Source of the DNA: a virus
DNA length: 64,000 nucleotides
Direction: 5' to 3' (one strand)
Virus record (IMG/VR): IMGVR_UViG_3300035204_001773
Coordinates: 45,212 to 109,211 of that record
Shown here: positions 23,956-50,608 of the stretch, one piece after another
Layout: each line of letters opens with the position of its first letter
Position numbering within the stretch: the stretch's first letter is position 1
The notes under the pieces: generated by a model
The model's database searches: none
Seen by the model: only the letters and a program-made list of their open reading frames with translations
What the model was told of the DNA's origin: nothing
Translations under genes and position numbers: made by a program

Positions 23956-26900
23956 TTACGATGTCCTATTTGGCGGAAAATAACCGCCTCCCTTTAAAAT
24001 ATTACCCTTACTCCAGTCTATAACCGCTTGCGCAATTGCATTCGGAATAGCTTGTACCGTACCGTCAATGTTTACATTTATATTAGCTGTTTGATTGCTA
24101 TCTCCTCCAATGTTTCTAATCTGCTCTATCTCGTCCTTCCGACTTCTTCCTTCTAGGTTTGCGGAAAGACTCTCTGCTGCCTTGGATATTTCTTCTCCGA
24201 ATGATGTTGCGGCCATGTTTATTTGTTGTGTCGCAGCTTCAAAATTCGGAACGAAGCCTGCTGCTCTACCACTTGAGAAGTTGGGAACTCCTCCTGTTCT
24301 TGACCCATAAGTATTTACATTTGCGCCTTCTGATCTTGCTCTACTGATTCCTTGATCCGGCCCCTGTGGTTCGTCAATTCTATTAAAGACGCCTACTCCG
24401 AAGTTGGGGACATACCCCTTGGCTGCGATACCTTGGATTCTTAAATTATTACTCTTAATAGCGGGGTGCTCTGCTACGTATACTGAGCCTTCCGCGTCTG
24501 ATTTAGAATACCCTCTACCCATGAGAGCGGTAATCTCTCTATCTTTTGCTTCTTCTAATTGGCTAGAGAAATTTGGTATAAACCCTCTATGTTTTCCAGC
24601 GCTACCAGAGCCACGGGCAAAATTAGGGATAAATCCTTTAGCTAAATTTTGTCCTCCCTTTACTCCCCTTCTTCTTCTCTCTTCATCTAAAACGGTTTTG
24701 GCCATTTTTAGATTTGCCAATTGTTCTAATTCTGCATTAGACATTCTCGCTAGCGCATCATCTAGAACTTGACCCGACTTGCCCGCCGTTGGATCCATTT
24801 GAGCTATCTCACCATAAACCTGACCCTGAAATTCGCTAACTTCTGACGGGTCCACATATCTCCACTGCTTCTCTTCCTTACCCGGAATCGTCAGAAGCTT
24901 CATCCATTCGCCCGTTTCCGGATCTAGCTTCCATTCGGACGCTTGGTCTCCCTTCCCGACCTTTACTGTTCCTCCATCCCTAAAGAAGCTATTCTTTCTT
25001 GTTCCTCCCAATTCGCCTTTGCTATCTCTACCCTTCACGCCCACACCCCTAGACCCAACTCCTTCGCGAACAACGTAACCTTCAATTCTGTCCCTTGCAT
25101 TCCCCACGGCTTTATTAAAACCGCTCTGACTAAATCCCTTGGTGCCCACTCCAGTTGCCGTTTCTTGTCTCTGCCATTCTTCCGCGTAGGCTGAAGAAGT
25201 AGTATTCAACCACTTTCTAAACGCCGGTGTTTGCATATCTTCTTCGGACATACCAGTTTGCTTTGCCATATTAAAAAGGAAATCTTTAGGCGGTATATTA
25301 GCGTCCTTCATCAACTGGAACATCTTCATCGCTGCTAGGTTATCTGGATCGTCTTCGTATCCCACCGAGGTTCCCCCCGCGAGCTTCTCCATCTCCATGC
25401 CTGTTCCGACCATTAGTTGGCCAAATAATTTAGTATCATCAGCCCTCTTCTTCTGTCCAACGGTTTTACCTTGATTACCGAAGGCTTGAGTGTTTTCGTA
25501 TTGATTAAAATAGTCGCCTACCCGTTTTTGGGTAATCTGGTCCCTAATTTCTCCCGCTATTCTTTGCGCTTGAGCTATGCCTTCCGGGCCAGTGTTGAAT
25601 AATGCTCCGGCCGCTTGGGTTTTTTGCTCGGGTGTTAAATCTTTACCAAATCTTGTAACTGCATCTGCTAAAAATGCTTTATCAGGGCCCGCTCCCGGGC
25701 CAACGGTCAAGTCGCTGACCAACGTCTTTTGCCAATATTGTTTAGATGCTTCAAGAGCAGCTTTTAATTTTTGATTTTTTAGCTTAATTTTTTCAAGTTC
25801 TTTTGCGTAACGCTTTTGCATCGCAGGATCATTAGTTGATTTCATAGCTTGCTGTAATTGAGCCGCCTCTTGCCCACCAGCAAGCATTTGCAAAGCAACC
25901 CCTTTGAATCGTTGTCCGTATGGACTAGCCGCCATAAGGGGATCTATACCCGCTGCTTCAAACAAGGTTGAAGGTTTCCCGGGTTGCCCCGTTAGGGGAT
26001 CAACGCTTTGGCCGCCTCCAAGGCCGAATTCGGTCATTAATTGCGGATTTTCTAAAAGCGTGCCTCCAGCAAAACCACCTGCGCCCGCCATAGACAGATC
26101 GGCCAAACTTACATCAACCCCCGAACGATCTATAGAAGCTTTGCCCCCACGAACAGATTCTGCTTGGACCATGTCACTATGACGATTTCTTTCCGCTCGC
26201 AATGCGCTTTTAACCTTGGCCATTGACATTTTTTGGCCAGCATATTGGCTCAATCCCAAGCTTTGTAAAAGAGTATCTGGAACTGCCTGTGAGGAATCAA
26301 GCCCTTGACCTCTAATCTCTAAAGCTCTTAATTTTTGCTGCGCAACCTGTTGACGAGCGAAAGATTTAGCCATATTGTCGCTAGCTCTTTTCTTCTGATC
26401 CTCTAGCATGTCTCTGTATTTTTCTTTTTTCTCTCCTCTAGCGCTTTGATATTTACCCCGCACGTAATCTAATGCGTGACCACTCGCTTTACCATACGTA
26501 AATCCTTGTTGAGATATTCCCAGTGAATGCTCTAAAGCTTCTTCTGTATTAATCCAGTTCTCTGCGGTAATAGCATTTCTGTCTCCACCTCCCCAGTCAT
26601 CAATCATCATTTGCTTCATGTTACCAATTTTGAAGTCTATGCCGAATCTCTGAGCGAAGGCCACCTGATTACCTGCTATTTTTGCGAACCTAGCAGCGGC
26701 TGCCTGTTTTACCCATGGCGGATTATTTGGAGCTTCTTTAAATTCTTGGGCTGCGTTTTGTATGGACCACAACATTTTCTTCCTCATTGTTTTCCTCTGT
26801 GAGTCTTGCAGTTTACGCTTTAATATGGGATCTTTTGTTCTCCGTATCATCTCTGCATTACCTTGGATATCCATAGACAACATTTGCCCCATGTCTTTTG

Positions 26901-32900: not shown

Positions 32901-35900
32901 CACCCGGTTTAATTTCTATATCATTCATCTGTTGAGACAACATTTTGGAAAATTGATCAGCCATCTCGGGCGGCAAACCACTAAACGCATTCATTGCGAG
33001 GCGACTTGGGCTAACGGTTACGCTTTTGCCCGTTGCAAGAGCCTTATTGTAAGCCTCTCCCAGACCACCCATAACCTGCCTATGTGTCCGCTTCATCCAT
33101 GCCCTTTTCGAGAATCCGCCCTTCGTTGACGTTTTTGCCTGATCCATCAAGCTTTTGTCAGGAGCAGTATCGCCCAGTCTCTGCCTCATGAATTCATCAG
33201 GAGACATAGTACCCATTCTATGCTCTGCTGCGCCACCCTTTTGGCCGACGCCTGCTTGTTGTTGAGACAACTCCACTTGCGCACCCATGCTTTTCAATAA
33301 GTATTGACTCGCTGCATTCTTTGATGCTTCACCACCCAAGTTTTGCGCTGCCTTGCCACTCTCTAATGCGTGAGTCATTTCATGAACTATTAAACCTCTT
33401 TGCACATTTCGTGCCATTTGACCAGCGCCACCTTTTTGTTTTCCTGCTTTTACAATTTCATCATCAACCACCACCTGATTCTTCGTGGCATCCCACCAGC
33501 CACCCCAGCGTGCTCCACTTGCACCACCGGGTTTGTTAGTCGTATTTTGCTTAGTTATATCCCAATTTTGTTTAACTGCATTAGCGTAATCTTTTTTGAT
33601 ACTTTCCCCAAGAACCCCAGTGGGAGATCCAGTTTTCTTGGCCATATTTTGCTCGTATAGATTACTTAATTTTATTGATTCGAACATGGCGTATCTTTTA
33701 GACATACCACCGACAAGTTTTCCTATCTTACCTTCTGCAAAATAATTAGTAAATAGCTTTCCGTGAAGTTTATTCAAAGCGCCTGCGCCCATACCTTTCA
33801 CCTTGTCTACGATAGGCCCGCCAATTTTTCTAGCACCTTCCGCCATTGACGACTTCCAACTTCTCCACGTATCTTTTATATTAAAGGGCATTTTATACCT
33901 AGAAGCCATGTTCATGGCTTCTTTAATGCTCATGCCAACGCCGCCAAGTCCCGCAGATGTTTTCTTTCCTAAATTAGTAAACCACTTAGCCGTGTTCCTG
34001 ACCCAATTATTTTTAGAATCCTTCTTTACTTGTGCGGCTTTCTTCGGTTTTTTCTGCTTCACCTTTTCTGGTGCGTCTGTTAAAGCGCTCCCCATAAAAT
34101 AAGGAGACAAGCCTGCGTAAAATGCGTTCATAGCTCTCCAACTATGCTCTTCTTCTCCTGCTAGATTAATCGCTTGTCCCCCCATGGGAGTATCCAATAC
34201 CATTTGTTTTCGCGAACCACCAGTGCCAAGGGGTCCACCGCGTGCGCCAAACCATGTACTATGATGACCACTTCTTCTATCTAGAACATTAGCTACGCCG
34301 CCTCGCACGCTTGTGCCACCGGGCAAACTATCAATGAGGCCCCTAGATCTCCCTTTTAATAGATCGTCGTAAAGATCTAGCATGTCAAGTTTTTCTTGGT
34401 TTGTGAATTTGGTACCACCCATTCCAAGCTTGTTCCATATATCCGCTTGGTATACTTGCCCGAAGCTACCCGTGCCCGGAACAAATCCACCCGCTGCGAA
34501 CGACATGGGAACCATTCCCTGCGCGTAAGTTTTTCTTCCGTGGTCTACGCGCAATTTACCTCTATCTTGTAACCATTTTCGTTGATCTTCATGAAGAAAT
34601 CTTCCTGTAGCGGGATCAAACCCAACAGGACGACCTCTTCCAGCGGGCATTAGGCTTGCTCCGCTAAGATTAGAGGGGTCTCCAAGAGTTCCATCAATTT
34701 TAGGGTCACGCCCACCGGTTTGGCCAAACGCCCATATCGCCGTCCTTTCGTCTAGCCCGCCACTGTCACCAAGAGCACCCAACTGGTAGGCAGGTATACC
34801 TGTTTCTAACGAATACAGATAACGATACGCTCTTTTCCAATCCTTGGGGCCATAATATTGTTGTATATATCTTCTAGTTAATTCTCTCTGCGCCCTTGGA
34901 TCTCTTCCTGTTTCTGGATCATTCCTTAAACTTGTAAGATATTCTCTTATTGGGGATAAATTAGCATAAGTATTCCCATCCGAACCCTTGACAGGTTTAT
35001 GAGCACCACCACGACCCATCATTTCTTGCTTTGTCCTAGCTTTAGAAGCGGCGGCTATACCCCCCAATGAGCCAGCGTTGATTCCCCATTTATTTGCTTC
35101 TTCTGACCATTTTTCTTTTGGGTTATTTTTTTGAATGAAAGAGTACATCAAGCGTGTCCACTCTCCGGAGTTTTTAGCTATTCCATTACTCTGTAGCATG
35201 CCATGAAACTCATTAATGGAAGTTCCAGAAGAAACAGATACGCTTGGCTGCGAGGGTGTTCTCAAATGGTATACCTGATTTCCCATTTTTCTAGCTCCTC
35301 GAACAAATTCGCTTCTAGTTCTTCCTCCTTGTTCGGGGATATGCAAAAAGCCGGGGAGATTTTCTTTTGGCTGCCCTAATGTAAAAAATTCGTTTTGCCC
35401 TCGAAACAAACTAAAGTTGCTAAGATTACCTTTTCTGATTTCTTCTTGTTCTGATTTAACTCTGTCAATAAAATCCTTTGTGTTATTCATGCCTACAGCG
35501 CCCATAGGCATGTTCAGAGCGATCTGAGGAGTTAAATTTATACCAGTACTACTTTTGATCCTCTGTTTAACGTTATCATATTTTTGCCAATCGAGGACAT
35601 TGTCTGATGTGAGCTCGGTGTGATTAACAATATCTGGATTTCTAGCAATAGCATCATGCCATTCAGAGTACCACTTTTCTAATTTGTCATATTTTACTTC
35701 TACTTTTCTAAGCCCATCTGTTGAAGGAAGCAAATCAGGAGATGGAGCAAAAACCTCAATTGGAGAGGGGGATCCTCCAGCAGCCAAGCTAGGAACCTTA
35801 TATGTAATTTTTTCTCCGGGGGTATACCCATCAGAAGCTACCGTGTAAGGATTAATTCCCCAAGCCGCTTTTGATCTTTGCTTGTGTGCCTTGCCAGCTT

Positions 35901-38900: not shown

Positions 38901-41900
38901 AAGAAATATCAGAGTCTACCCTTTCTCTTCTAACGTCGGATAAACCCGCCGCTCCTATACCCACTTCTTCTCCAGCACTTCTCATACTTGAGGCGGTCAC
39001 CGTGGTTTTACCAGAAAGATTCGCTTTATCGCCTTCTACTTTTACTAATTCGCTTTCTACCTGCTCTAGTTGTGCCAACGTAACATTATATTCGTCAGAA
39101 CCTTTCTTCATTGTTTTCAAGGTTTTAACTAGAGCCTTCACCTCTTTTTCCATCGTTTTAACAGCTGGTTCTAAACCGCTCAACGGCGAACCGAGAACAC
39201 CTTTAGTTAGGTGTCCTCCGGCACGCACAGCTGCACCCATTTTACCCGACGTAAGAGTGGTTTCTTTTTCTTTTAACCAACGAGCGAATCCACCTTCTTC
39301 GTCATCATCAAGGAAATTTGGAATATAACCAGCCGCAGCTATTCCATAAGTGTTGGGATTTTTGCCTTCTTTTAGAGCTCGACTAACGCCTTGTCCAAGT
39401 CCTTTCTTTTCGTCAATATCGTTACCAACACCAAGGTTCAATGGGTTTGCGGTAATTCTTTTATCTTGCCCCAAGAAAATATGACTCTTCGCTTCTTGTC
39501 TGGAGATGTCTTCTCTAACTGATAAGGCATTTATTTCCCTTTCTTCTGCCTTTGCAACTTGCTCTTTTATACCCGGTGTCCATGCACTTCTTGTAAAATG
39601 TCCATCTGCAAAATTAGGAACATAACCTCGTGCGCCGTGTATTCCTCCAATTCTTTTTACTTCTTGTTCGCTTCTTGGAGAATGATGTTGCCATCCTCCC
39701 GCTGAAATTTTTTGTAATTCTTGGTCCGGACCATTCCAATGTTGTACATCGAAATAGATTGCTTTTTTCATTGCAAGATCTATAAGTCTAGCAACCGCTT
39801 CTTGTCCATTTCTGCCAGCGCCCAACTGCAAGCCAAGCCACCTCCGAGTCTTTTCTCGATTCATTAGGCGTTTCGTGCCATGTTTGGTTTCTCTTAAACC
39901 GCTCGACGCCTCACTTCTACGAGCAAGTTCACCTGCTGTGCCGGGGCTACCATCTGCAGGAGGAATCTCCGGCGCAGAACCGACCTCTTCGTCACCGGGT
40001 GTTAATTCTAACATGGCTCCGCGATGTTCTCCCCATCGTTGTGCGACACCCTCACTTCTACTTAATGAAGCAACTCCGGGTTGAGACTTTGTTCTAACGC
40101 TTTGATCAGCGAGCCACCCCTCAAAAGATCTTAGTGATTCTTCGGGAGTATTTCCTTCTCCGGCTTGTCTAGTTGTTGTTACGGTCTCTTGTTTCCAATC
40201 TGACCAACCCACGTTAGTGTAGGACATATCGGGTCTGCCATCTTCACCATATTGATATTCTCCTTCTTTGTATCCCCGAAAAAGATTTAGGAAGTTTGGT
40301 ATGAATCCTAAGCTCTTCATATTAGCTAAATTTTCTGGCTTAGCTAATTGTAAAATTCTTTCTACATCATTTATATTTGTAATTTTATCAAAGCCCTCAT
40401 CTAAAGTAGGAGCTTCAAAACGATTAAACATACCTTCAATAGCTGCATCTGGTATAGTTTTGCTACCGCCCTTGGCTTTTGTTAGTTCGGCTCTCCTCGC
40501 TGTAATCGCCTTAACAGCTGATATAACTTGCTGTTGTTTTTCGTCTGGTAATTGAGATATATCACTAAAGACTACCGCCTGTTTTTCGTACCCTTTAATA
40601 TCATTCTCATCGAACATATTTAAAGACATTGATCGTTCTCTTGCGGACATGTTTGTCATATCTACAGAAATATCTTTACCTGACTTACCAGCTTCCGCAA
40701 CCCTTTTGTCAAATTTATTTTGAATCTCGCTTCTAACTTGGCCTATTTTATCCCAAATTAATTTAGGTATCCAAGGCTGTTGTTCAGCTTTCTCTTCATC
40801 GTATTCTGGATTTATAACTGCTTTGCCATATTTAGGATGAGTTTGACCTAATCTAGTTCCCGCTGCGGGTGTCTCAAATGAGTCGTCATAAGTCAGTCCC
40901 ATGTCTTTAGTTACTTGATTGACTATGTCATCTCTACTTACGATGAAATCTTTCGGCGCGTTCTCTTTGAGCCAAGTTGATTTACCAACCCCCGGAGCAC
41001 CGACAAGTGTTCTTAATTTTCTCGCAAAGCTCGGGACATGTCCCCTACCAAATCCCATACCGCCCATGTCACCCGCTAATGCGCCCATTAATTCTCTATG
41101 AGCTTCTTGAGAAGACTCGCTTCGCCCATCATTAACGTCTCTCCCGTTAAATTTACTGCCCGGTCCCGCATTTATAAATCCACCTTCCCCAGCATGAGAT
41201 TCTCTTCTTCCTTTCAAATAAGCAGCGGCTTGAAAATGAAATCGCGTCCCGGCCCTTGGATCATAGGTTGCGGTCTTGCCTCCATCAGCACTAAAGGCAA
41301 CCGAATCATTTTTCAAATCTTGTCCTCTTGCCCACTTTTCAAAATTTGGGACAAAACCTCCTGCGCGACCCTTGCCCGTGCCCCCGGCTCGTTTGTCCAC
41401 GCCCCCCATCTGTAAATATTCCGCCTGTTCAGCCTCTGATAGATCACGCATTACTTGCTTCCGAATCGCCGCTTCTTCGTCTTGCTGGCTCATTCCATAA
41501 AGATTCACGCCTTTCCGTCTTAACGTCTGGCGTGCTTTTATCTCAAGTTGGTGAAAATGCTCCCTTCTATTCTTCCTATTTTTCTCGGTTTCTTCTCTTG
41601 TTGGCTGGATATTACCTTGTTCATCTATCGCGCCCAAACTCCTAAACTCAGGTTCATTACCCGTAAAGACAGCCTCTATAAAGCTGTGCCCCTTTGCTCC
41701 TATGCCAAAAATATTATCCCCACTAATTTTTGGACTATATTCATTAAAGAATTCTTTAAGGCTGTTAATAGAATTCTTGATCTCGTCTTCGTTCAACAAG
41801 TTGCCAAGGTTTCTTGCGCTCATCTTTTGGCTTGAGGGACGCTTGTTATCTTGTTTCGGAATAAATGATTTAATGGTTCTTTTAAGTCTTGCCCATAGAG

Positions 41901-44900
41901 TTTCTTCTTTTCTTATGAGATCTTTGTCAACCTCATTGCCCGTTGGCGTTGTGCCTTTAAATCTTTCAAAGAAATTCGGAATATTACCGGCATATTTCGC
42001 TACTAATTTTTTCTTTCCAATCCGCGCGATATGATCTTTATGCAGATTATTCGCTCGCACAAGAGCTTGATCATATGCGGGATCCCCTGATTTACCCGTT
42101 TGTAAAGCACTGATTTCAGACGAATTCAAACCCATTTCATAAAGATAATGAGGCTCTTTCGATTTAAGGTCATCTGAATCAAAATCAGTAGCTTTGATCT
42201 CTAGCCCCTGCATAGGCATCCCCGGGGTAAACATACCTCCAAATTCTTCTTGTATCCTTTCGTTAGATATATCTATTGGTTCTTCGCCAGCTGTATAAGG
42301 TTTTCCCGAGACTGTATCTTGTGGTGGCGTTCTTCCTCCTACCGTCGTCTTTTGCGCGGTAGTCATTCCATGTATCATGCCTTCCCATAATGCTCCAGCA
42401 AGATCCCGTTTTGTCCCAACTGGTAACTTCATGCCGCCTACAGCGAATTTGCTTTGCAACTTGCCAGTTACTTGTGCTAACTGATTCTTAAAGTCTGGAT
42501 CTTGAAGAGCAGCCTCTTCATCACCTCCGTATGATTGCTTAACCGTCATCCCGGGTCCAGCTTCGTCTATAAACCAAGTTCCCATATTTGGTAGGACGGT
42601 CCCAGAAACTTGTTGCTCTACTTTATCATAGAACCTATCTCTTATTCCTGAATCAAATACTTTCGGATCAAGTCCATAACGCTGAACTCTCGATGATTTG
42701 TGTCTAGAAGATATTTCCGAAGGCTCTTCTGCTGATCCACCAGACTGTCCCGGCGCTCTTGTGCCCATCGTGAGAACTGGGGTATAATGAGGCGCGCGTT
42801 CTCCTTTAGATAAATTTATTACCGTGCCATCTGCTAACGTAATTGTTTTGTCAGCAGCAAAATTAGGCACGTTCCCCCACGCGGCCATAGCTTGTTTATC
42901 TCCCATTGCGCCGAGTGCCGAGCCCTGAGCGCCACTCTTGTCAATATGATCTCTAACCCAACTAAGTTTTCTTTTTGGTCCCGTTCCCCTATTATCGCTT
43001 TCGTGAACGTAAGTTCCTAAGCTCGGCGCGTACCTCCATAAGGCGTTTGCGTCGTAATGATCTATTTGGCTTTCCTTCTTCTGCGCAGACCTTAAAGAAG
43101 TCGATAGCCCCTTAGTAGTACGCATTGAGCTAGCGAAACTTGGAACAAATCCTCCAGCAACGCGTTGACCAGTTGTTGTGTCGATCATGTCAGGATCAGT
43201 AACCACATGCCCCTTACCCATCTCTCGAGCTTTCTTTAATAATCTTACGTGCTCTTGGGATACGCTTTTCCCCTCGCGGCTACGATCTATTACTTTCTTA
43301 TCTGGCCCGAGGAGAAGATGATAGTTTCCTTCTGTTCTATCTTCGAAGTTGGGAACAAAACCTCCTGCTACTCTTAAACGAAGCCCTCTGGCGTGACTAA
43401 TAGCATCCTCGGGGCTCTTAAAAGTTTGACCTGTCGGGTTGTATTTCCATCCTCGAGTTGTTAAAGGGCTATCATAAAGAGACTGAACATCATTCATTTC
43501 AGTCATTCCCTCAAATGGCTCCTGTCCTTTAGGCCAATGAGGCTTGGGATGTCCTGCGTCCATCAAATCTCGAACCGTTAGCCTTGACAACCGAGAAACT
43601 TCCTCATCGTACTCGGGGTCGCCGGGATTCGCCGGTAACATAAGATAGCTAGGTCCACCATCGAATCCTCCATCCGGCTTATGATGTTTTTTCCATCCTG
43701 ATGGTCGTGCAAAATTTGGAATAAAACCTGAAGCCCTCTTACTCCTTTCTATTCCGCCGGGATTTGCTCCACGGTTAGCGAAAGGAGTTTCAAAAGTCTG
43801 CACTCCCCGAACCCCAGTCATATTTAATCTTTCAATTTCTTCTATATTAGCCTTGGCGTCATCATACAAAACTAACTCGGGACTTTTTCCTGCTTCTTTG
43901 GCCTTTTTGCTCATTCTAGCCATTAGCAAGGTTTTCTTTTGAGCAGCATTTAAATAACGCCATTGCCTACTTCCTTGCCCCTCTGGCCATCCATCTTCGC
44001 CTAATTTTTCAAACTGGCCATGAAATCTACCGCCTTGAATAAAATCTTTTTTTCTAACAAGGCCTACTTCAAGACCTGTCTCAGGATCAATTGTACTAAA
44101 GTCTGGATTATCCATAACCTTCATGTCGTTGAACATGGATCCGCTAGTTATAACCCTATCAACATTTACCCCTTGACTTTCGAGTTGTCTCCTGATTACC
44201 GCGTTTGTTCCCTCTCCTTGAGTAATGGCTTGACGTGACCCTGCTCCTCTAGCAGTCGCTACAGTGACTGGTGCTTGTGATGCCTTATAATCTTCTCCTC
44301 TACTTGTCAGGGTTGACTTCTTTACCGACCAAGGGAATGCAAAAGATCTACTTGGCATATCGGCGGGATATGTGCCAAGATTTTCATCATAGTCTTCGAG
44401 ATTAACTACTTCACCGTCTTCTAAATCTCTGGGCCTTACATAGTTAGGAACAACACGTCTTCCTCTATTTGAGGAAAGAAAATTAGGTACGTTACCGCGG
44501 AAAACATTATACGTTTTTCCCTTGTGTCTTTTTAAATCCGGTCTTGCTTTTTCTACTTCATCATAGAAAGCGGTATAATCTATGGGCGCATCTAACGTTC
44601 CCGCTAATTGCTCATGGCTTCTTGCGTCATCCCTGTGAGATGTTGATAGTCTAGATTCCCGTTGACCTCGCACTTCTTCTTGAGATTTGTCAAGACCAAT
44701 TAGCCTCTTGCTCATTCCAAGCACGTTACCGAAGAAATCATTATTAAGACTTTCCCCTCCATGAATTATTGCGAACTTATCCATCGCGTCGAATTGACTC
44801 TGGTTAGTTACCAGAACCCCTTTTCCTACGTTGGGTATTTTCTTATCAAGAGCTTTGTTGCCTGATTTCAAACCGGCGAAAGTAGATTTCCCTGAGCCAG

Positions 44901-47900
44901 CTGGCCCCATGACAGTACTCACGGGCTTGCCAGTTTGAAAAGCGTCATAAACCAATTCTTCCCACGAATCTCTGTCCATTTTTGATCTATCGAAATCGAG
45001 AACACCTCTAGCAAAATTTGGAATCATTCCTGAAGCTTTCAACGCCATACTGCTCGAATCAAACGCTGGAACATGCCCCATGTACTTCGGTAGAGCATTT
45101 ATGGAACTAGCTGTTGTCGCTAGTGCTTTTCTAGACTTTCGCTTTTCCTCTTCCTGTCTTCTTGTAAATAAAGCGTGAGAATGCTCCCATTGCTCTTTAA
45201 ATTGCCCCTCGTTAATAAATGAATTTATAGTATCTTTACTTATTTCGCCCCCCTCGTCTCCTGCTGTTCGAGAAAATTCGGAACCATGCAATAAAGCACC
45301 GATAGTTTTATCTACCCTTTCTTTATCCGCTGCCCCCATGTCCCCAGAGAAATACGAGTCTGGATCTAAGCCTTCTAATTCTAACCCAGCGACTTTTGCT
45401 ATTGGATTATTTTTTCTTTTAATATTCTCTTTAGATGATAAACCAAGACCTCCGTGTTTCGGGTCTCCACGCCTTATGCCAAACCAATCTTTAGACCCAG
45501 CGGTTTGAACTGTATTAACTATTCTAGAACCAAACTCGGTTGCTTCAAATAATTTATCAGCCATACTATTCATATTACCCTGACTCGTACTATTTTTGGC
45601 ATCTGCTAAAGGAGTTTTCACACCAAAGGTATCAGGGTGCCTAAGCTTGTGATATCCCCCATCTCGCCCTTCCATATAGTCCCATCTAGTAGAACTAGAT
45701 TTAGCAAAATCAGTATCATCATAAACTAAAGCATCCACAGACCCCTCGAACGCTCTACCAACTGCTTGAGCCATTTGCCCTGTTCCAACAACTTTATTTA
45801 CATATTTTTTGATATCAGCCTCGTCAGCTGGCGGTTTAAAATATTGATTTGCATATCTTGATACTTCTGCTCCAATTTGATTATTGATTGACTCTTGCGC
45901 CTCAGAACTATCCGGTGCTCTTTTCGCTGACAAAGCAGGAAAAGAAGCCTTTAAAGAAACCCCATAAGCTCCGAAGGTCTGTTGTGCTTTATCATTAAAT
46001 TTTACATTATAAACCCCCGGAGTTGGTGTGCGCTTACCCCCACCTTTATCAGGCAAGAGTATGGAAGCCATGTGATGAGCATTGACTACTCCTCCGGGTA
46101 AAATATCTGCTTGACCGCTTGCTCTTTTGAGTTGCTTTTTAATTGGGTCTAATTTTTCATTAGTTAAATCTAAATAAGTTCTTGGAATTTTTAATTTCTC
46201 TTTCTCTGCTGCCATAAAATTAGGCACACTGCCAACTGCTGTAAATTTATTAAACTCACTCTTCTTAACTTTCTCAATTGTTTTTTCTAAAACTTTTTGT
46301 ACCTGCGGTTTATACTTTGGTAAAATAGCTGAATCTCCACCCTTAAGCCCCTTGGGTTTAACGCCGTATCTCTGAAACAGTTCTTTAGCAGTAAACTCCT
46401 GCTCACTAGAATTCATTATTACGCGTTTACCATCGATCGTGCCCCTAGACATATGCGCTCTAGTTCCAGAGGCTGCCCCCATAGCTCTGGCCATCTTTGT
46501 TTCTTCTTTATATGGGTCATAAAAGAAGTTAGGAATATTGCCCGAGGCATTCCCGCCGCCGCCTTTCTTCCCGGGGACATCCCAACCACCGCCCTTCATA
46601 GGGAACATAACTCCTCCGCCAAAACTTCCAGTAGAATGCATTGTCTTAGCTAACATAGCAACAATTTTAGCTTGATTCGTCATTTCTCTATTCTCTGCTC
46701 TTATTTTTTCTAAAAGATCTCTATGAACATCTGCAAGAGATTTTGTACCTCGCATAATTTCTTTTAACATCCTCGGCTCTTCAGCAAGCAGTGAATTCAA
46801 TTGGGTTTGAATCCTCTGTTGGTCCGCCATGTGCTTACCTCCCCCGCTAATCGTTTTAAAAGCGTCTACGGCATAAATCCTAAGTTTATCAAATAATTTA
46901 AACAAAGCCATAATACCCACGGCAAGACCCGGACCTTTTAAAAATTCTCCGAGACCTTTCGACATTCCAGAAGAAAGCTTAGATCCCAGACTCTCTCCCG
47001 AAGCCCCAAGGTCGGTTGATTCTAAAACTGTATTTATGCCCGAAAGAACTCTTTTTATAGCGGGGGCAAGAGCATCTTCTCCCAGCTTAGAACCGGCTTG
47101 TTTTAAATTAGCCATGGTTCTATTAATTAAAGTGCTAAAGCTTTGGTTCAATTTTTCATTTCTCGCAATAGCTTCATCGGTAGCAGAGGTGGCAATACCT
47201 AAAGCGTTTTCATATATTGAAAATTCTTTTGTTAAATCACTCAAAGAAGCTTTTAAAATATTAATTTGGAATACGCCACCAACTAATTCAGCAATCTGAG
47301 CTTGTTGCGATTGCGCTAGGCTATCGTACTGCCTCGCTAAATTTTGCAGCACTTGCATAAGAGGCATCATTTGCCCGCTTTGCTTTTTGGTTTGCACGCC
47401 AATTTCTTCAAGTGCCTCTAAGACTCTAGGCCTTTGTATTCTTGTGAAAATAGTTTTGAACGCGTTACCAATAACATTACCACCACGAGCAGTAACTTGT
47501 TGAGTGGCCGTTATAACTGCAAGTAGTTCTTCAAATTTTACTCCCGCTCCAGCAGCCGTGCTTCCTACTCTTCGGATTGCTTCAGCAAGGTCACCAGAAC
47601 TCACGGCAAAAGCCTGATCAACCTGAGCCATCTTACTAATTATTTCTGTAGAATTTAGAGCCGCCCTTGAATAGCCGTTCATAGCAGCAGTAATCGCGTT
47701 TACAGCAGCGGCGGCATCTAATCCAGAAATTCTTGTTAGTATAAGAGCGTCTTGGGTCCTTTTAAGGGTTTCTTGCATCCCAAGACCTTGTCTTGCGAAT
47801 TCTCCAGCAGCAGTAGCCACTGTTTGGAAACTTTGCGCTGTGTTTCTGGCTACATCAAATAATGAATTTCCAAATTTAGTAAGTTGGTTTTGGCTAGTAT

Positions 47901-48189
47901 TTAAAATTGTATTAATTTCTGTTAAAGATTTTTCAACCTCCACAGCGGAACTTACCATTTGTCTAAACGCATCTTGAACACCCATAATAAGACCAGCGGA
48001 TGCGCCAAAGGCAAGTACACGAGCATTAGAAGCGGCGAGAGATTTTTCAAATTCACCCAGATCCCCCTTGATGCGACCAAGAGGAGCGCCATCGAAATTT
48101 ACAGACACAGGTACGCGACTTAGCTTCTTAAGCCTCTTTTCGAGAGGGCTTAAATCACCATGTACCTTGACTGTTACTGATCCGGGCAT
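23956..48189 (-). CDS. Giant tail tape measure protein (8077 residues) with embedded enzyme-like modules
   Basis: Sets tail length, fills the tube and is normally ejected ahead of the DNA. One uninterrupted frame. Residues about 40-330 are the TP901-type tape measure core (EFARQGLGMQETLKRTQDAL; ISGLDAAAAVNAITAAMNGY). From 553 to 2957 the protein is divided by 14 G-x-x-P-(N/S)-F motifs, and the segments resemble PD-(D/E)XK (E815, D863, K865; E1997, K1999), P-loop (1095-1103 and 2397-2405), HAD (D1266, D1268, D1443, D1444) and ADP-ribosyltransferase (R2638, S2708, S2710) modules. Residues about 3000-4100 are Lys/Glu/Gln-rich and helical. A zincin motif HEMTH is at 4936-4940, and about 80-residue repeats run from 5250 to 5920. 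Hydrophobic segments lie near 6375, 6517 and 6570-6605. A second PNF cluster ends the protein. Ribosome site AGGA before ATG. The tape measure call is firm; module functions are inferred. Confidence 0.9.
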   Translation of the reverse strand: MPGSVTVKVHGDLSPLEKRLKKLSRVPVSVNFDGAPLGRIKGDLGEFEKSLAASNARVLAFGASAGLIMGVQDAFRQMVSSAVEVEKSLTEINTILNTSQNQLTKFGNSLFDVARNTAQSFQTVATAAGEFARQGLGMQETLKRTQDALILTRISGLDAAAAVNAITAAMNGYSRAALNSTEIISKMAQVDQAFAVSSGDLAEAIRRVGSTAAGAGVKFEELLAVITATQQVTARGGNVIGNAFKTIFTRIQRPRVLEALEEIGVQTKKQSGQMMPLMQVLQNLARQYDSLAQSQQAQIAELVGGVFQINILKASLSDLTKEFSIYENALGIATSATDEAIARNEKLNQSFSTLINRTMANLKQAGSKLGEDALAPAIKRVLSGINTVLESTDLGASGESLGSKLSSGMSKGLGEFLKGPGLAVGIMALFKLFDKLRIYAVDAFKTISGGGKHMADQQRIQTQLNSLLAEEPRMLKEIMRGTKSLADVHRDLLEKIRAENREMTNQAKIVAMLAKTMHSTGSFGGGVMFPMKGGGWDVPGKKGGGGNASGNIPNFFYDPYKEETKMARAMGAASGTRAHMSRGTIDGKRVIMNSSEQEFTAKELFQRYGVKPKGLKGGDSAILPKYKPQVQKVLEKTIEKVKKSEFNKFTAVGSVPNFMAAEKEKLKIPRTYLDLTNEKLDPIKKQLKRASGQADILPGGVVNAHHMASILLPDKGGGKRTPTPGVYNVKFNDKAQQTFGAYGVSLKASFPALSAKRAPDSSEAQESINNQIGAEVSRYANQYFKPPADEADIKKYVNKVVGTGQMAQAVGRAFEGSVDALVYDDTDFAKSSSTRWDYMEGRDGGYHKLRHPDTFGVKTPLADAKNSTSQGNMNSMADKLFEATEFGSRIVNTVQTAGSKDWFGIRRGDPKHGGLGLSSKENIKRKNNPIAKVAGLELEGLDPDSYFSGDMGAADKERVDKTIGALLHGSEFSRTAGDEGGEISKDTINSFINEGQFKEQWEHSHALFTRRQEEEKRKSRKALATTASSINALPKYMGHVPAFDSSSMALKASGMIPNFARGVLDFDRSKMDRDSWEELVYDAFQTGKPVSTVMGPAGSGKSTFAGLKSGNKALDKKIPNVGKGVLVTNQSQFDAMDKFAIIHGGESLNNDFFGNVLGMSKRLIGLDKSQEEVRGQRESRLSTSHRDDARSHEQLAGTLDAPIDYTAFYDEVEKARPDLKRHKGKTYNVFRGNVPNFLSSNRGRRVVPNYVRPRDLEDGEVVNLEDYDENLGTYPADMPSRSFAFPWSVKKSTLTSRGEDYKASQAPVTVATARGAGSRQAITQGEGTNAVIRRQLESQGVNVDRVITSGSMFNDMKVMDNPDFSTIDPETGLEVGLVRKKDFIQGGRFHGQFEKLGEDGWPEGQGSRQWRYLNAAQKKTLLMARMSKKAKEAGKSPELVLYDDAKANIEEIERLNMTGVRGVQTFETPFANRGANPGGIERSKRASGFIPNFARPSGWKKHHKPDGGFDGGPSYLMLPANPGDPEYDEEVSRLSRLTVRDLMDAGHPKPHWPKGQEPFEGMTEMNDVQSLYDSPLTTRGWKYNPTGQTFKSPEDAISHARGLRLRVAGGFVPNFEDRTEGNYHLLLGPDKKVIDRSREGKSVSQEHVRLLKKAREMGKGHVVTDPDMIDTTTGQRVAGGFVPSFASSMRTTKGLSTSLRSAQKKESQIDHYDANALWRYAPSLGTYVHESDNRGTGPKRKLSWVRDHIDKSGAQGSALGAMGDKQAMAAWGNVPNFAADKTITLADGTVINLSKGERAPHYTPVLTMGTRAPGQSGGSAEEPSEISSRHKSSRVQRYGLDPKVFDSGIRDRFYDKVEQQVSGTVLPNMGTWFIDEAGPGMTVKQSYGGDEEAALQDPDFKNQLAQVTGKLQSKFAVGGMKLPVGTKRDLAGALWEGMIHGMTTAQKTTVGGRTPPQDTVSGKPYTAGEEPIDISNERIQEEFGGMFTPGMPMQGLEIKATDFDSDDLKSKEPHYLYEMGLNSSEISALQTGKSGDPAYDQALVRANNLHKDHIARIGKKKLVAKYAGNIPNFFERFKGTTPTGNEVDKDLIRKEETLWARLKRTIKSFIPKQDNKRPSSQKMSARNLGNLLNEDEIKNSINSLKEFFNEYSPKISGDNIFGIGAKGHSFIEAVFTGNEPEFRSLGAIDEQGNIQPTREETEKNRKNRREHFHQLEIKARQTLRRKGVNLYGMSQQDEEAAIRKQVMRDLSEAEQAEYLQMGGVDKRAGGTGKGRAGGFVPNFEKWARGQDLKNDSVAFSADGGKTATYDPRAGTRFHFQAAAYLKGRRESHAGEGGFINAGPGSKFNGRDVNDGRSESSQEAHRELMGALAGDMGGMGFGRGHVPSFARKLRTLVGAPGVGKSTWLKENAPKDFIVSRDDIVNQVTKDMGLTYDDSFETPAAGTRLGQTHPKYGKAVINPEYDEEKAEQQPWIPKLIWDKIGQVRSEIQNKFDKRVAEAGKSGKDISVDMTNMSARERSMSLNMFDENDIKGYEKQAVVFSDISQLPDEKQQQVISAVKAITARRAELTKAKGGSKTIPDAAIEGMFNRFEAPTLDEGFDKITNINDVERILQLAKPENLANMKSLGFIPNFLNLFRGYKEGEYQYGEDGRPDMSYTNVGWSDWKQETVTTTRQAGEGNTPEESLRSFEGWLADQSVRTKSQPGVASLSRSEGVAQRWGEHRGAMLELTPGDEEVGSAPEIPPADGSPGTAGELARRSEASSGLRETKHGTKRLMNREKTRRWLGLQLGAGRNGQEAVARLIDLAMKKAIYFDVQHWNGPDQELQKISAGGWQHHSPRSEQEVKRIGGIHGARGYVPNFADGHFTRSAWTPGIKEQVAKAEEREINALSVREDISRQEAKSHIFLGQDKRITANPLNLGVGNDIDEKKGLGQGVSRALKEGKNPNTYGIAAAGYIPNFLDDDEEGGFARWLKEKETTLTSGKMGAAVRAGGHLTKGVLGSPLSGLEPAVKTMEKEVKALVKTLKTMKKGSDEYNVTLAQLEQVESELVKVEGDKANLSGKTTVTASSMRSAGEEVGIGAAGLSDVRRERVDSDISSDQLSRSFMMSQIGMSLGEIVPEAKGVTDTLVGMQNSFSAIVAVLPGTFGRVVGGAAALAVGIDKATAWIRDIAMNAKDMAKDAETAKEKYTEINDAMSQYMSTWDQLNSAKQDGAAPFETMRRLDKKLLDLMGSITAIDEEAGMAMGMAVSANQLKEAYEKARQRLEEDRNQKVAGDNLTKRQQQGNAGVLKTLAEGLTLGMMDFGNPYETGGTFGTKRSKIDNKAAEEDAKEVLSSIGAFSNRDAMTKLAGGPGLKSAGDDASAIISILENAGLSLNANAQQGIQNLEGKGGLTILAKEMDKLIQAQKENSDKHDESNAAREKARKQSEKLKEALDQAKQGFVEAQRNFNDALMFVTKIKDIEGGARRRVDIEGLKGGMGMMRRGTMGASAFGLQVKTAGIRNDQFTKAQDATRGARGKQLSEFQSELTKLQEKKKGSQADDIGRISQEFTAMMEKNKDLSATETADAIKKFTERSDVTSALGPKLINRLVRSSREEGQKVLRQLKELSINTQAQIDIAKQAFEFEKQERQRKRDVSMLGGMDGLLDPDKQTADIEGFLEGLIRMQKTQEAGADFKGQQAKGTAEMLRGLKGLMGGSLFGGREEAQVKAGGGVETAEEVQRRLQIEFPDLMKFRGDFIKQMGKDRSNQLNMMADQAEAAGAPRGVVAGMRREAGRAEESVANVFDEEFMTGAIDKQQLQQLKSIDGRLGSLPKDLASAINFDPQAALTSASTDMGAARRGVQGAQDAYDQFEREGDREANKKKLKDAKRDADMQVGQLAMDPQMMAAMGGMDAKQRKRTLKNIFETEGAGSAADIANMLKAPGAGRKFGISSTHARGLQGVFDQAAREQRDGEDSPFSIGQRVKKPRVATQTAKTLDENLQAHQKLGQLQAQKRRIENELQAADERDRGPIRARLRQTESEIEALREKQSRAAHGFVPGGGGLSASIERSQALEGGYRAGAIKNMKISGVGNVTYNSAESVVSVPGISQPFINPPEFSKAGKAHKQRSKAAWGINPYTVASDGYTPGEKITYKVPSLAAGGSPSPIEVFAPSPDLLPSTDGLRKVEVKYDKLEKWYSEWHDAIARNPDIVNHTELTSDNVLDWQKYDNVKQRIKSSTGINLTPQIALNMPMGAVGMNNTKDFIDRVKSEQEEIRKGNLSNFSLFRGQNEFFTLGQPKENLPGFLHIPEQGGRTRSEFVRGARKMGNQVYHLRTPSQPSVSVSSGTSINEFHGMLQSNGIAKNSGEWTRLMYSFIQKNNPKEKWSEEANKWGINAGSLGGIAAASKARTKQEMMGRGGAHKPVKGSDGNTYANLSPIREYLTSLRNDPETGRDPRAQRELTRRYIQQYYGPKDWKRAYRYLYSLETGIPAYQLGALGDSGGLDERTAIWAFGQTGGRDPKIDGTLGDPSNLSGASLMPAGRGRPVGFDPATGRFLHEDQRKWLQDRGKLRVDHGRKTYAQGMVPMSFAAGGFVPGTGSFGQVYQADIWNKLGMGGTKFTNQEKLDMLDLYDDLLKGRSRGLIDSLPGGTSVRGGVANVLDRRSGHHSTWFGARGGPLGTGGSRKQMVLDTPMGGQAINLAGEEEHSWRAMNAFYAGLSPYFMGSALTDAPEKVKQKKPKKAAQVKKDSKNNWVRNTAKWFTNLGKKTSAGLGGVGMSIKEAMNMASRYKMPFNIKDTWRSWKSSMAEGARKIGGPIVDKVKGMGAGALNKLHGKLFTNYFAEGKIGKLVGGMSKRYAMFESIKLSNLYEQNMAKKTGSPTGVLGESIKKDYANAVKQNWDITKQNTTNKPGGASGARWGGWWDATKNQVVVDDEIVKAGKQKGGAGQMARNVQRGLIVHEMTHALESGKAAQNLGGEASKNAASQYLLKSMGAQVELSQQQAGVGQKGGAAEHRMGTMSPDEFMRQRLGDTAPDKSLMDQAKTSTKGGFSKRAWMKRTHRQVMGGLGEAYNKALATGKSVTVSPSRLAMNAFSGLPPEMADQFSKMLSQQMNDIEIKPGDKRFLNKDGSFSRQKLFKMVKGQAGYQRMIKEIGNRVQLGSIDEEYKTYSTQRMAERMGAKGNWVMAKDFLKVAVPHLLREKNVHPSQLKERFMNFAREKFGRVPKTTALSIHGEKNMGTIQADSNKPALKMSEKFFNSRAGRMLTGLADLRKSPLYRGVKFTGGQISDLSKKFTNLSRSPILKALRGYKQDFSRGKRFTGKMKFDEIKNQKEQIKSRNRMTRIGASVGSAESLAKSIKSQVSKATGSVKTNFWNQVGAFKHGYTGGAKGAFVATDSALRTEGLGKGAAASVQHLKSALGQGQQFAKNLVNMQKSPILNKIIEGHAGAKGMLGDFKHGFKSGNLRKFNIAMPGAPEVKASGAQKLGATFKNLSTSLVDGIGRGKDNFKTWSKSKLNSMKARFNQTELVKGYRFGAGQPTGRQHGGFQGKVEHSRMRKFGAGIKGGQDLVKKLQHQIATGLVDAGETVKSSPVGKAVGSVHKAAASFFDFNRSPLVSKGKKFRGDFSRARRFFGKLSGPQRNSLMAMPEFKSRSLATKLGIKTIQAGDFLKNLFGTPKQAAQLQAATSGTKIDTSGLDKKKPTLAERLRKPYDNFKRGRRFMQKISPEERQNQRAQMKTRDAYTKAGMKSVLAMDYMKNLKKKLGSIPGRLKEAGGKSFADIKKGWKAGALNLDKPERMKFSKEGSGYRGRLVRNTIPMEQLKKGPAANNMSRSEWLARRARIGAGVTKEWLKNLPSRFGGLMNKHLQKSPVMEGFKIGRQGGRGEEMRRLFPDARTGLPGGKREGMFGALGRMTGRFASQLPLVAKGENFWTGKRSLVPSWITEGAREQAMTPKERKAHERKEAAKDRRLARRALQDPNVLKDQLGLTDDQIKLLQKKGLLKKLGSARSFDKVIASLAEQTKSAKKGHGKNRLRIRELSAMNKAANFSVGRSANDGAGGKWSGSVRAPSSRVSSLAAILTDRSMSRAGGGPSARGNVVELSQQNVERMKALDPDFKQEGGKARAKLETNARSSDPKVAGKAKFALANRGYKAGAMGLKGVGKGAMGFGNPHDVNIRKAVAQFEKTRARIEKKVGNGSMSYSKGQNMLKAAWTKHVEGGKNTPLDKVAALPPDKSGRSGAQKLGRLMMAKAGPDSGLLEKQLQAIEKDPGRRSADATKQRNAQLGRLQADALKTEQNMKVKADQELLARRLDAASKDLAKGIEGRRDGKVKTAMKTIGKLSHKIGLYRPEQGGLMSRTLFGNNYKQMWQMGKQKWGFGGGKFGGGTIGRDLRGGAVGIGAGLATGWIGKYLMQNENKTIAKIGEGIATYGGYGVGTYMIMRGLEKEAQQRAAKELAEGAIEQSVKSGSKKSAVKKAADFFTDASDKGLRGAAYKKAGEGLDKVAKKGGIWKSVKASKSGQWTKGMAKKFGGSSAIRGLGVGIVGQMIGSHFVNKAYAKEMEGLQGRMEKGGVDGADATVEMHQLQLQKDRVATGTRLGIDILAMGPALLAGGPVGAAIWVAMTAATLADHFRRQKDMKADEAGAKINAAIARAGEKDHGIRQQLASALWDEVLTQPGSQNRFGLSLNFGEGENAALIYDAEKAASTQKLMSNLIQTGTTASADSSALIDMEKELLRISPEEMRNMSDRLEHYTGKSGKELAAMEPSERAEYIKNNADLAWYDKLSSLGMGDDPEGFAQRTAALFAQQAEMRKASGRFASLEELDSGKLPEATAKRNKILSEMKDIPGLPDEVKMMFKVGEEMNKLDMREEATKAQFKHLEREQMGQSWYEGIDKTMMPGRMQSNIDAQNEVAGRKRDLKAIAEQSRAGRMGGKYHKAMQEGNLVDAEEMLKRGGANEAAIKAWREKMKKMPAMKEKIEARETQLVSQQYVDKNTGKTIKKTQLYKAADGKTYYMSGGRRVEAITRGSFVQDLSATGAIKVEEGDDGESIVRDHRGNILARGSGAKLMDQLHKNIFTGKEGKGDSRLTRKELSEVEIERKMDAKKYGTQGNQRLGVISRAGQTKDMGQMLSMDIQGNAEMIRRTKDPILKRKLQDSQRKTMRKKMLWSIQNAAQEFKEAPNNPPWVKQAAAARFAKIAGNQVAFAQRFGIDFKIGNMKQMMIDDWGGGDRNAITAENWINTEEALEHSLGISQQGFTYGKASGHALDYVRGKYQSARGEKKEKYRDMLEDQKKRASDNMAKSFARQQVAQQKLRALEIRGQGLDSSQAVPDTLLQSLGLSQYAGQKMSMAKVKSALRAERNRHSDMVQAESVRGGKASIDRSGVDVSLADLSMAGAGGFAGGTLLENPQLMTEFGLGGGQSVDPLTGQPGKPSTLFEAAGIDPLMAASPYGQRFKGVALQMLAGGQEAAQLQQAMKSTNDPAMQKRYAKELEKIKLKNQKLKAALEASKQYWQKTLVSDLTVGPGAGPDKAFLADAVTRFGKDLTPEQKTQAAGALFNTGPEGIAQAQRIAGEIRDQITQKRVGDYFNQYENTQAFGNQGKTVGQKKRADDTKLFGQLMVGTGMEMEKLAGGTSVGYEDDPDNLAAMKMFQLMKDANIPPKDFLFNMAKQTGMSEEDMQTPAFRKWLNTTSSAYAEEWQRQETATGVGTKGFSQSGFNKAVGNARDRIEGYVVREGVGSRGVGVKGRDSKGELGGTRKNSFFRDGGTVKVGKGDQASEWKLDPETGEWMKLLTIPGKEEKQWRYVDPSEVSEFQGQVYGEIAQMDPTAGKSGQVLDDALARMSNAELEQLANLKMAKTVLDEERRRRGVKGGQNLAKGFIPNFARGSGSAGKHRGFIPNFSSQLEEAKDREITALMGRGYSKSDAEGSVYVAEHPAIKSNNLRIQGIAAKGYVPNFGVGVFNRIDEPQGPDQGISRARSEGANVNTYGSRTGGVPNFSSGRAAGFVPNFEAATQQINMAATSFGEEISKAAESLSANLEGRSRKDEIEQIRNIGGDSNQTANINVNIDGTVQAIPNAIAQAVIDWSKGNILKGGGYFPPNRTS
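24241..24627 (-). repeat. C-terminal cluster of five G-x-x-P-N-F motifs in the tape measure
   Basis: Protein-level repeats read on the minus strand. The Pro residues are P7855, P7872, P7928, P7969 and P7981, in contexts KGFIPNF, RGFIPNF, KGYVPNF, GGVPNF and AGFVPNF. Spacing is 12 to 56 residues, much tighter than in the N-terminal array. The stretch between P7872 and P7969 repeats the layout of residues 2858-2957 (EREINAL / DREITAL and NTYG in both). Confidence 0.8.
30430..32445 (-). repeat. Degenerate ~80-residue repeats in the ruler part of the tape measure
   Basis: About eight to nine units. Each begins with a (K/R)SP(I/L/V) element followed by a basic-aromatic stretch such as YKQDFSRGKRFTGK, YDNFKRGRRFMQK or KKFRGDFSRARRFFGK, then a helix. 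Clear SP prolines are at residues 5251, 5277, 5412, 5567, 5589 and 5846. Sequence divergence is high, so the duplication is old. The regular spacing fits a ruler built by internal amplification. Confidence 0.6.
39313..46533 (-). repeat. N-terminal array of fourteen G-x-x-P-(N/S)-F motifs separating enzyme-like modules
   Basis: Motif prolines at residues 553, 656, 1057, 1235, 1491, 1613, 1683, 1775, 2071, 2281, 2386, 2631, 2858 and 2957 (two are PSF: 1683 and 2386). A PNY follows at 1248 and a related HVPAF precedes at 1041. Consensus is small-G-(F/Y/N/M)-(I/V)-P-N-F-(A/small). Nearly every recognisable domain begins within 10 to 40 residues after a motif. The motif is absent from 2958 to 7854, where only two weaker GFVPG variants occur (4036 and 4571). 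Confidence 0.85.
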
Positions 48190-49483: not shown

Positions 49484-50608
49484 TTAACCCTCTTCCTTGT
49501 TTTCGTTAGGCTTGTTATCCGCTTTCGGCTTGCCTTTTCTAGGCTTTCTTTTTTTTGTTGATTTTTTAAGTGGTTCTTTATCGGCAGGCTTCTCTTCAAC
49601 GACTTCTTTTTTTACCACTTCTTCCTCAACCGTTTCTTCTTCAACCGTTTCTTCTTCAACCGCGCCCTTTACAACTGTAGGGGGGTCTTTGCTTAGCTCT
49701 TCCTCAACCGCCTCTTCTAATACTGATTCTGCAGCTTTATCAGCAGCGTCTTGTTCCTCTTGTAGATCTCTAATTTCTCTTTCCTCCTCTTCAACATCTT
49801 CTAATGACTCCATGTCTTCTGTGTCCTCCCCCATAGATGAATCAGATTCTTTATAGATGTCCATGGCTCTATCGAAGTCTTCTTTATCTGTCGCTTGGCC
49901 CGAATACCAAAAACTTATAAAGTAGGCCAGCTTTTTTATAATCTCATCCCAAAAGGGTTCTTCTTTACTTTCAATTTCGTCATAAATGTCAGCCTTTTCA
50001 TCAAACGAATCACCCGGGAAAATAGCTTGTCCATTCATATACCCCAACTGAAGAACCCACCACATAAGAACTTGGTTCCTCGCTCTATTCTCTGCGGTTT
50101 GATTAAACAGAGACGCTTGAGCTTCTTCAATATCTCTTAAATTTTTTCTTAATTCCAGAATATCATACAAAGACTCTACTAGTTTAGATTCTTTTTCTTC
50201 GGGGTCTAAATTATCCAAGTTGAGTTGGACTCTTTGATATTCGTTTTCTTTATCTAAAAGGGCGTAATAAATTTGAAAATATTCCTCCTTCTCTCTTTCG
50301 CTCATTGAGCCGCCGTCATCTTCGTACCTCTTAGCGAGCAAGGCTTTCGTAAGGAGCCCAGCTTTTATACCTTCTGATAATTTTACTCCATAAAATAACT
50401 CCGCGTCATCATACTGTCTTCTGCTTGGTCTTTTAATAGCGACTTTTTCCGAAATGACTTCTGACACCGTTTTTGTAGTAACTACCTTTTCTCCGTCTTC
50501 GTTCTGTGATTCTACTTTCTGCTCTGAATCAATCGATCTCTTAACGTCGAAAGTGTACATGTATTTACTCTTTACCTGCGGCCTTTTTCCCTTACGTTTT
50601 TTGCTCAT
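49484..50608 (-). CDS. Putative tail assembly chaperone with acidic repeat tail
   Basis: 374 residues. Lys/Arg-rich N-terminus, a helical middle (ELRKNLRDIEEAQASLFNQ, then RNQVLMWWVLQLGYMNG), and a long charged C-terminus made of VEEET-type repeats followed by a basic end (KKSTKKRKPRKGKPK). It overlaps the 114-residue gene by 4 bp (ATGA) and is followed by the 409-residue gene in the same frame. Placement between tail tube and tape measure, small helical body and acidic tail fit a tape measure chaperone, which keeps the very long tape measure soluble during tail assembly. The basic/acidic tail may instead be a disordered binding region. Inferred by synteny. Confidence 0.45.
   Translation of the reverse strand: MSKKRKGKRPQVKSKYMYTFDVKRSIDSEQKVESQNEDGEKVVTTKTVSEVISEKVAIKRPSRRQYDDAELFYGVKLSEGIKAGLLTKALLAKRYEDDGGSMSEREKEEYFQIYYALLDKENEYQRVQLNLDNLDPEEKESKLVESLYDILELRKNLRDIEEAQASLFNQTAENRARNQVLMWWVLQLGYMNGQAIFPGDSFDEKADIYDEIESKEEPFWDEIIKKLAYFISFWYSGQATDKEDFDRAMDIYKESDSSMGEDTEDMESLEDVEEEEREIRDLQEEQDAADKAAESVLEEAVEEELSKDPPTVVKGAVEEETVEEETVEEEVVKKEVVEEKPADKEPLKKSTKKRKPRKGKPKADNKPNENKEEG
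49627..49663 (-). repeat. 15 bp tandem repeat coding for an acidic VEEET repeat
   Basis: About 2.5 perfect copies of a 15 bp unit (plus strand CAACCGTTTCTTCTT). They lie in the C-terminal tail of the 374-residue chaperone-like gene and encode the VEEET repeats. Slippage would change the protein in steps of five residues without breaking the frame. Confidence 0.7.

Follow-up and report, generated by a model that had tools for sequence, protein, structure and literature searches.

An enzyme within a phage tape measure protein (TMP) is already known from Thermus phage P23-45, whose TMP, gp96, contains an active RNA polymerase, is found at full size in virions and is used in the host (PMC10770324). 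The TMP of lambda gets to the inner membrane during injection (PMC13190303), and beads-on-a-string passage through the tail has been proposed for the vRNAP of N4, which has an HExxH domain (PMC12633501); a cysteine-free vRNAP was noted in an N4-like phage (PMC4837373). Polyvalent proteins, in which a zincin metallopeptidase is the commonest (not an obligatory) hub domain, are likewise known (PMC5512222). An exchangeable multi-enzyme array with a fixed tag in TMPs was not found in the literature searched, which covered few subscription papers or bioRxiv preprints, and the motif-delimited multi-enzyme tape measure presented here appears to be undescribed.

The window (the whole stretch of 64,000 nucleotides that was analysed) is the right part of a 109,211-base IMG/VR virus record. 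Its TMP gene (23956..48189, minus strand) starts with ATG and runs for 8077 codons without an internal stop. The product is a TP901-type tape measure protein, as its match to TIGR01760 (residues 69-391, E=4.1e-37, 128 bits) is above the curated cut-off of 28.8 bits; PF10145 also matches the core (E=9e-31, 107.7 bits versus a cut-off of 33.2). The single 24.2 kb frame with a TP901-type core, which the initial annotation had recognized, was therefore confirmed. The gene order fits a place between tail tube/chaperone and distal tail genes; the neighbours of the TMP gene have no PHROG assignment, and a 297-aa protein encoded upstream matches a tail tube model weakly (PF09393, E=0.046). The features of the protein are collected in Table 1.

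Table 1. Features of the window TMP, with their positions in the protein and in the window
Feature	Residues	Window position	Strand	Basis
TP901-type core	1-545	46555..48189	-	TIGR01760, PF10145
First motif array, 15 copies delimiting cassettes	550-2960	39310..46542	-	motif count
Segment 1, short, after core	556-652	46234..46524	-	homologues: first segments of L031, L006, L070
Segment 2, E815/D837/DAK865 signature, PD-(D/E)XK-like	659-1037	45079..46215	-	relatives' alignment
Segment 4, P-loop domain, GPAGSGKST	1060-1231	44497..45012	-	8 relatives, Walker A conserved
Segment 5, HAD-signature phosphatase candidate	1238-1487	43729..44478	-	7 relatives
Segment 6	1494-1609	43363..43710	-	no homologue in sampled TMPs
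Segment 7	1616-1679	43153..43344	-	no homologue in sampled TMPs
Segment 8	1686-1771	42877..43134	-	no homologue in sampled TMPs
Segment 9	1778-2067	41989..42858	-	no homologue in sampled TMPs
Segment 10	2074-2277	41359..41970	-	no homologue in sampled TMPs
Segment 11	2284-2382	41044..41340	-	no homologue in sampled TMPs
Segment 12, polynucleotide-kinase-type P-loop kinase	2389-2627	40309..41025	-	PF13671, tblastn, alignment
Segment 13, ADP-ribosyltransferase candidate of the earlier reading	2634-2854	39628..40290	-	no profile match
Closing module, NPxGLGVxNTRDEP type	2861-2953	39331..39609	-	54 loci, alignments
Helix-rich rod, TM-like stretch at 3137-3155	2960-4030	36100..39312	-	composition
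Opening-type module	4036-4110	35860..36084	-	30 loci
HEMTH, zincin-like pattern	4936-4940	33370..33384	-	pattern only
C-terminal motif array, 5 copies	7852-7984	24238..24636	-	motif count
Second closing module, motif-split	7875-7965	24295..24567	-	7931-7965 match 55 loci

The part of the protein that follows the core is marked by the motif G[FNYH][IV]P[NSA]F. This is present in 20 copies, compared with a mean of 0.07 and a maximum of 1 in shuffled sequences; 15 lie in the first array, which agrees with an earlier claim that a recurring motif cuts about 2400 post-core residues into segments, and five are located near the C-terminus. The motif was found neither in other proteins of the window nor in 545,369 aa of non-TMP frames at the loci of relatives. 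No two of the 20 copies have the same DNA sequence, and their codon usage is that of the background, which indicates that selection acts on the protein and rules out a DNA recombination or coding artefact as the source of the motif.

A search of viral contigs with a DNA pattern for GF[IM]PNFA revealed at least 100 proteins with two or more motifs (the window's included), a lower bound on the number of carriers. Among the matches listed, the motifs usually start right after the TP901 core, at about residue 540-655. To avoid the selection bias of a motif-based search, relatives were re-sampled by the core alone, which gave at least 432, the best 80 of which were taken. Two or more post-core motifs were present in 78 of these 80 TMPs, a figure that holds for the clade nearest to the window core, from which the sample was drawn; in the other two the contig ends just after the core. 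In total, the 80 proteins contain 355 motifs, versus 10 after shuffling. The cores of other motif-bearing TMPs are 33-48% identical to that of the window. Both samplings rule out that such a TMP is unique to the source phage, and the design is a layout common to a large viral TMP family. The closed relatives among the best 80 of at least 432 are smaller (1012-3857 residues) and have fewer motifs (2-9), which makes the window TMP an extreme case.

The usual order in many relatives is the core, an opening module of about 76 aa directly adjoining it, the cassettes, a closing module (about 70 aa, NPxGLGVxNTRDEP type), which terminates the cargo region, and the rod. In the window TMP, the cargo is followed by a closing module, the rod, an opening-type module, a long central stretch that contains HEMTH and, at the C-terminus, a second closing module together with the five remaining motifs. 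This layout hints at a second, degenerate array.

INPHARED phages gave no match to the motif region of one relative (L087) or to the five-motif array at the C-terminus of the window TMP, so no cultured member was found. As to the host, metagenome-assembled genome (MAG) contigs point to bins of Flavobacteriales, Halobacteriovorax and Verrucomicrobiales, which are not conclusive, since phage contigs can be mis-binned. Two contigs of a single Halobacteriovorax MAG (L124, PBIO01000004; L125, PBIO01000001) each encode a closing module; these are possible phage contigs in a Halobacteriovorax bin, a hint of the host.

Comparison of close relatives revealed that the motif delimits exchangeable cassettes. 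Different cassettes were found behind cores that are 94-97% identical (L067/L154, L119/L153 and L017/L104), and the same architecture was shared by 216 of 825 pairs at 60-97% core identity (a few contigs belong to both samples, and some of the loci are incomplete). The switches are located at the motifs: in L030/L095, L017/L104 and L070/L191, the points where the pairwise alignment is lost and regained lie no more than about 10 residues from a motif.

The tag may serve as a recognition element for each cassette. Most likely it would attach the cassette to an assembly chaperone, to the rod of the TMP or to the lumen of the tube, or else permit its release. Docking or recognition is the role that we prefer, because in-cis proteases occur in only about a tenth of the TMPs. 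Alternatively, the tag might be a protease site at which the cassettes are cut out. The cuts might be made once the chain has been ejected or already during assembly, in which case the products would be individual proteins of the virion or the cytoplasm. A short invariant tag at each cassette boundary would suit such processing, and polyvalent proteins have been proposed to be self-processed by their zincins (PMC5512222). HExxH domains are also enriched in the relatives (10 occurrences, all in cargo, versus 0.8 expected). However, they are carried by just 8 of the 80 TMPs, so self-cutting cannot be general; the tag comes with no identified protease partner, and the enzyme of P23-45 remains in the full-size TMP in virions (PMC10770324). 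Cleavage at the tag is therefore unlikely, and we favour docking or recognition.

Among the individual cassettes of the window, segment 12 is the best-supported enzyme, and its kinase homology, as judged from profile and alignment, is real. Residues 2391-2530 match PF13671 (AAA_33; E=2.5e-8, 34.8 bits versus a cut-off of 27), tblastn identified the polynucleotide kinase of Ruegeria phage RpAliso (9e-8), and identity to a phage polynucleotide kinase is 27% over the full kinase length; the match to TIGR01663 is weak (6e-4). The P-loop kinase that had been read from the sequence is borne out here. Relatives of this segment were not found in the viral contigs searched. Another cassette, segment 4, has a profile that matches P-loop proteins in the PDB.

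Segment 2 represents the commonest cargo family (74 non-redundant members). Its E-D-xK residues are highly conserved (E in 50/51, D in 51/51 and K in 49/51 sequences), and G811, F814, E815, D837, K865 and K879 are nearly the sole conserved residues, which makes the family a nuclease-like candidate by residue signature. The model of the window segment is of moderate quality (pLDDT 70, pTM 0.51) and has no fold match in the PDB. For a compact relative (L068:6135-6752), the mixed alpha/beta model is confident (pLDDT 88, pTM 0.79) and has no match in the PDB or BFVD at E<=0.001, and for this reason the family was not assigned to PD-(D/E)XK. The earlier PD-(D/E)XK claim is thus backed by the signature residues and by no fold match. 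A PDB profile match of segment 2 to plant lectins (E=8.5e-5) was judged spurious, as neither structure model matched any fold.

A comparable situation was encountered with segment 5, proposed previously as a HAD domain. The signature (DxD, T/R, K and D, in order) is kept in 7/7 sequences (D1266, D1268, T1312, R1314, K1419 and D1443), with nine invariant columns in the 7-row alignment, and no HAD profile match was obtained in Pfam, NCBIfam or PDB profiles; the segment is a HAD-signature phosphatase candidate. Similarity to a T4 PseT-type phosphatase was looked for and none was found.

Segments 6-11 and 13 have no homologue among the sampled TMPs and belong to no Pfam or NCBIfam family. The assignment of segment 13 as an ADP-ribosyltransferase was not confirmed (no profile, at Pfam E<=1 or NCBIfam E<=0.5), nor was that of a zincin further on, where a single HEMTH pattern at 4936 lacks a zincin profile match. 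An RNA polymerase of the P23-45 type was also rejected: the sole DxDxD, at chance level, is DFDSD at residue 2002, and the segment that holds it has 290 aa, fewer than such an enzyme would need.

The cargo of relatives is more diverse. It includes matches to SNase (1.9e-9), a nucleotidyltransferase-related family (6e-8), PcfJ (2.9e-7), GNAT (7e-5) and HATPase (6e-5), as well as ParB-like and sigma-70 region 4-like segments in other TMPs; some of these matches are below curated cut-offs. The PcfJ match (Pfam) is a TMP cassette at L180:14442-16358. At L173:11519-21457, the cargo of a single chain combines a stretch resembling sigma-70 region 4 (E=7e-4, under the cut-off) with three HExxH domains. 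Protein-kinase-like segments were recognized in TMPs by eye alone. In the window TMP and in its relatives, one polypeptide would thus combine two or more domains with predicted unrelated activities, which is the hallmark of polyvalent proteins.

It could be argued that the segments have no enzymatic role and are decayed domains or structural spacers, which pad or shape the filling of the tail tube. Many of them match no family, the commonest cargo family matched no known fold, and charge-hydropathy analysis flags several window segments as disorder-like. Against this, the E-D-xK family conserves almost nothing but its signature residues, the HAD and Walker signatures survive at sequence identities of about 20-33%, the alignment of the kinase segment covers its full length, recognized enzyme families recur as cassettes, and cassettes are swapped whole. 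Moreover, the segments are not only disordered or coiled coil, since the L068 relative folds confidently. We consider the spacer explanation improbable and retain that of enzyme-like cassettes.

A further property of these proteins is the depletion of cysteine. The 8077 residues of the window TMP contain none, with 53 expected. In 79 TMPs, cysteine is absent from the core (0/39,612) and very rare in the cargo (3/58,918) and rod (8/100,158), whereas other frames at the TMP loci contain 1879 in 285,625 residues (0.66%). The long proteins known or believed to be ejected that were checked (L209-L214, from lambda, SPbeta, Staley, N4, T7 and P23-45) are all Cys-free: lambda gpH (0/853), SPbeta YomI (0/2285), the Staley TMP (0/2249), N4 gp50 (0/3500), T7 gp15 (0/747), T7 gp16 (0/1318) and P23-45 gp96 (0/5002). 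The non-ejected tail proteins lambda J and N4 gp65 have 11 each, and T7 gp17, a comparison protein, has three. The rule is not absolute, as the short ejected proteins gp14 and gp6.7 of T7 have one cysteine each. In being nearly free of cysteine, the cargo resembles ejected proteins and thus has the mark of a chain that travels into the host; a lack of cysteine may more generally be typical of injected proteins. This depletion is the strongest indirect evidence for delivery; it is correlational, and speaks for one route and environment of the chain, not for activity in the host.

Taken together, the family-wide layout, the cassette swaps, the conserved signatures and the Cys-free cargo uphold the original idea of a multi-enzyme cargo inside a tape measure. 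We consider it probable that, in this TMP of an uncultured tailed phage, the region after the TP901 core is a tag-separated array of independent, mostly enzyme-like cassettes intended for ejection into the host. The chain would sit in the tail tube in extended form or as small-domain beads and would be ejected ahead of or with the genome, so that the cassettes would reach the host with the DNA, presumably before early gene expression, refold there and act at once. The polynucleotide-kinase-type domain might repair nucleic-acid ends in the host, and other cassettes might hydrolyse nucleotides or nucleic acids, with takeover or counter-defence as the likely purpose. Against this proposal, folded cassettes would need to pass a narrow tube, seven segments are without a family, the commonest family is without a fold match, and the ADP-ribosyltransferase and the zincin were not confirmed.

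TMPs are late products and are assembled in the cytoplasm. The enzymes might accordingly be used for assembly, maturation or tail completion, at work in the virion or in the cell that makes it, and not in the next host. This has little probability, in our opinion: the cargo shares its near-total loss of cysteine with ejected proteins (the head-packed N4 gp50 and T7 gp15/gp16 among them), while the non-ejected lambda J and N4 gp65 do not show it, the variety of the cargo is ill-suited to one assembly function, and P23-45 provides a precedent for use in the host. We therefore keep to delivery. It is highly improbable that assembly or gene prediction fused several genes into the 24-kb frame: the window TMP has twice the length of the longest closed relative sampled (3857 aa), but its frame has no stop, it is Cys-free all along, rod and C-terminus included, and homologous opening and closing modules lie within the frame in the same layout as in relatives.

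Several other genes of the window deserve mention. A 374-aa protein encoded just upstream of the TMP gene (49484-50608, minus strand) has no cysteine either; it might serve as an assembly chaperone or take the route through the tube as well. A 2104-aa protein (52078-58392, minus strand), upstream of the tail tube candidate, has 32 cysteines and a weak Hoc-like (Ig-type) C-terminal match. Positions 63189-64000 (minus strand) contain a long Gly-x-y repeat frame of a collagen-like protein, of which the Leu/Val-rich ORF at 63563-63967 is a wrong frame. At the opposite end, a 550-aa frame (13-1665, plus strand), 13 bases from the window edge, encodes a DNA polymerase (phrog_405, E=4.8e-84, a partial profile match). 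The starts of two products (1662-2594 and 5113-6141, plus strand) resemble Rossmann-fold nucleotide-sugar epimerases and have a glycosyltransferase-like neighbour, as recognized by eye alone. Terminase families were not found in the contig.

More tentatively, it is quite possible that the TMPs of this large uncultured clade form a general modular injection platform. Any Cys-free enzyme cassette flanked by G[FY][IV]PNF could then be loaded and delivered with the genome, and cassettes would be exchanged like polymorphic effectors, the commonest being nuclease-like with a fold absent from the searched databases. If this is true, many metagenomic phages bring in swappable enzymes together with the tail ruler, ahead of all phage gene expression, and an early layer of takeover or counter-defence lies concealed in a protein that is commonly regarded as no more than a ruler. 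For practical purposes, the short tag would locate cargo boundaries in unannotated giant TMPs, and the loss of cysteine would offer a sequence fingerprint of phage proteins entering the host.

The window TMP shares features with several known systems. Like gp96 of P23-45 (PMC10770324), it is a giant, Cys-free TMP, with predicted enzymes as its cargo, although the role of gp96 in virion and host has been observed, whereas the window protein is known from its sequence. Moreover, gp96 has one N-terminal RNA polymerase, with no motif array or exchangeable multi-cassette region described, while in the window TMP the cassettes follow the TP901 core. The polyvalent proteins of Iyer et al. (2017, PMC5512222) similarly contain several unrelated enzymatic domains per polypeptide, are predicted to enter the host by injection together with the DNA of a phage or plasmid, and overlap in domain types (zincin, GNAT, ParB, NTase); that paper makes no mention of tape measures, whereas the array in the window lies inside the tail ruler and has a fixed short tag with opening and closing modules. 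N4 gp50 is also a giant Cys-free chain with an enzyme. Its ejection is known, while that of the window TMP is inferred, and it is head-packed in a short-tailed phage, is not a tape measure and has no tag array. Enzyme-like motifs occur in mycobacteriophage TMPs as well, but these peptidoglycan-hydrolase motifs, as cited in PMC13277306, are of a cell-wall type serving entry, whereas those of the window appear to be of a cytoplasmic type. Finally, the tape-measure-related effectors of contractile injection systems (PMC13277306) are TMP-like tube cargo with a variable functional part; in contrast to the multi-cassette TMP of the window, they belong to bacterial particles and have a single C-terminal functional domain.
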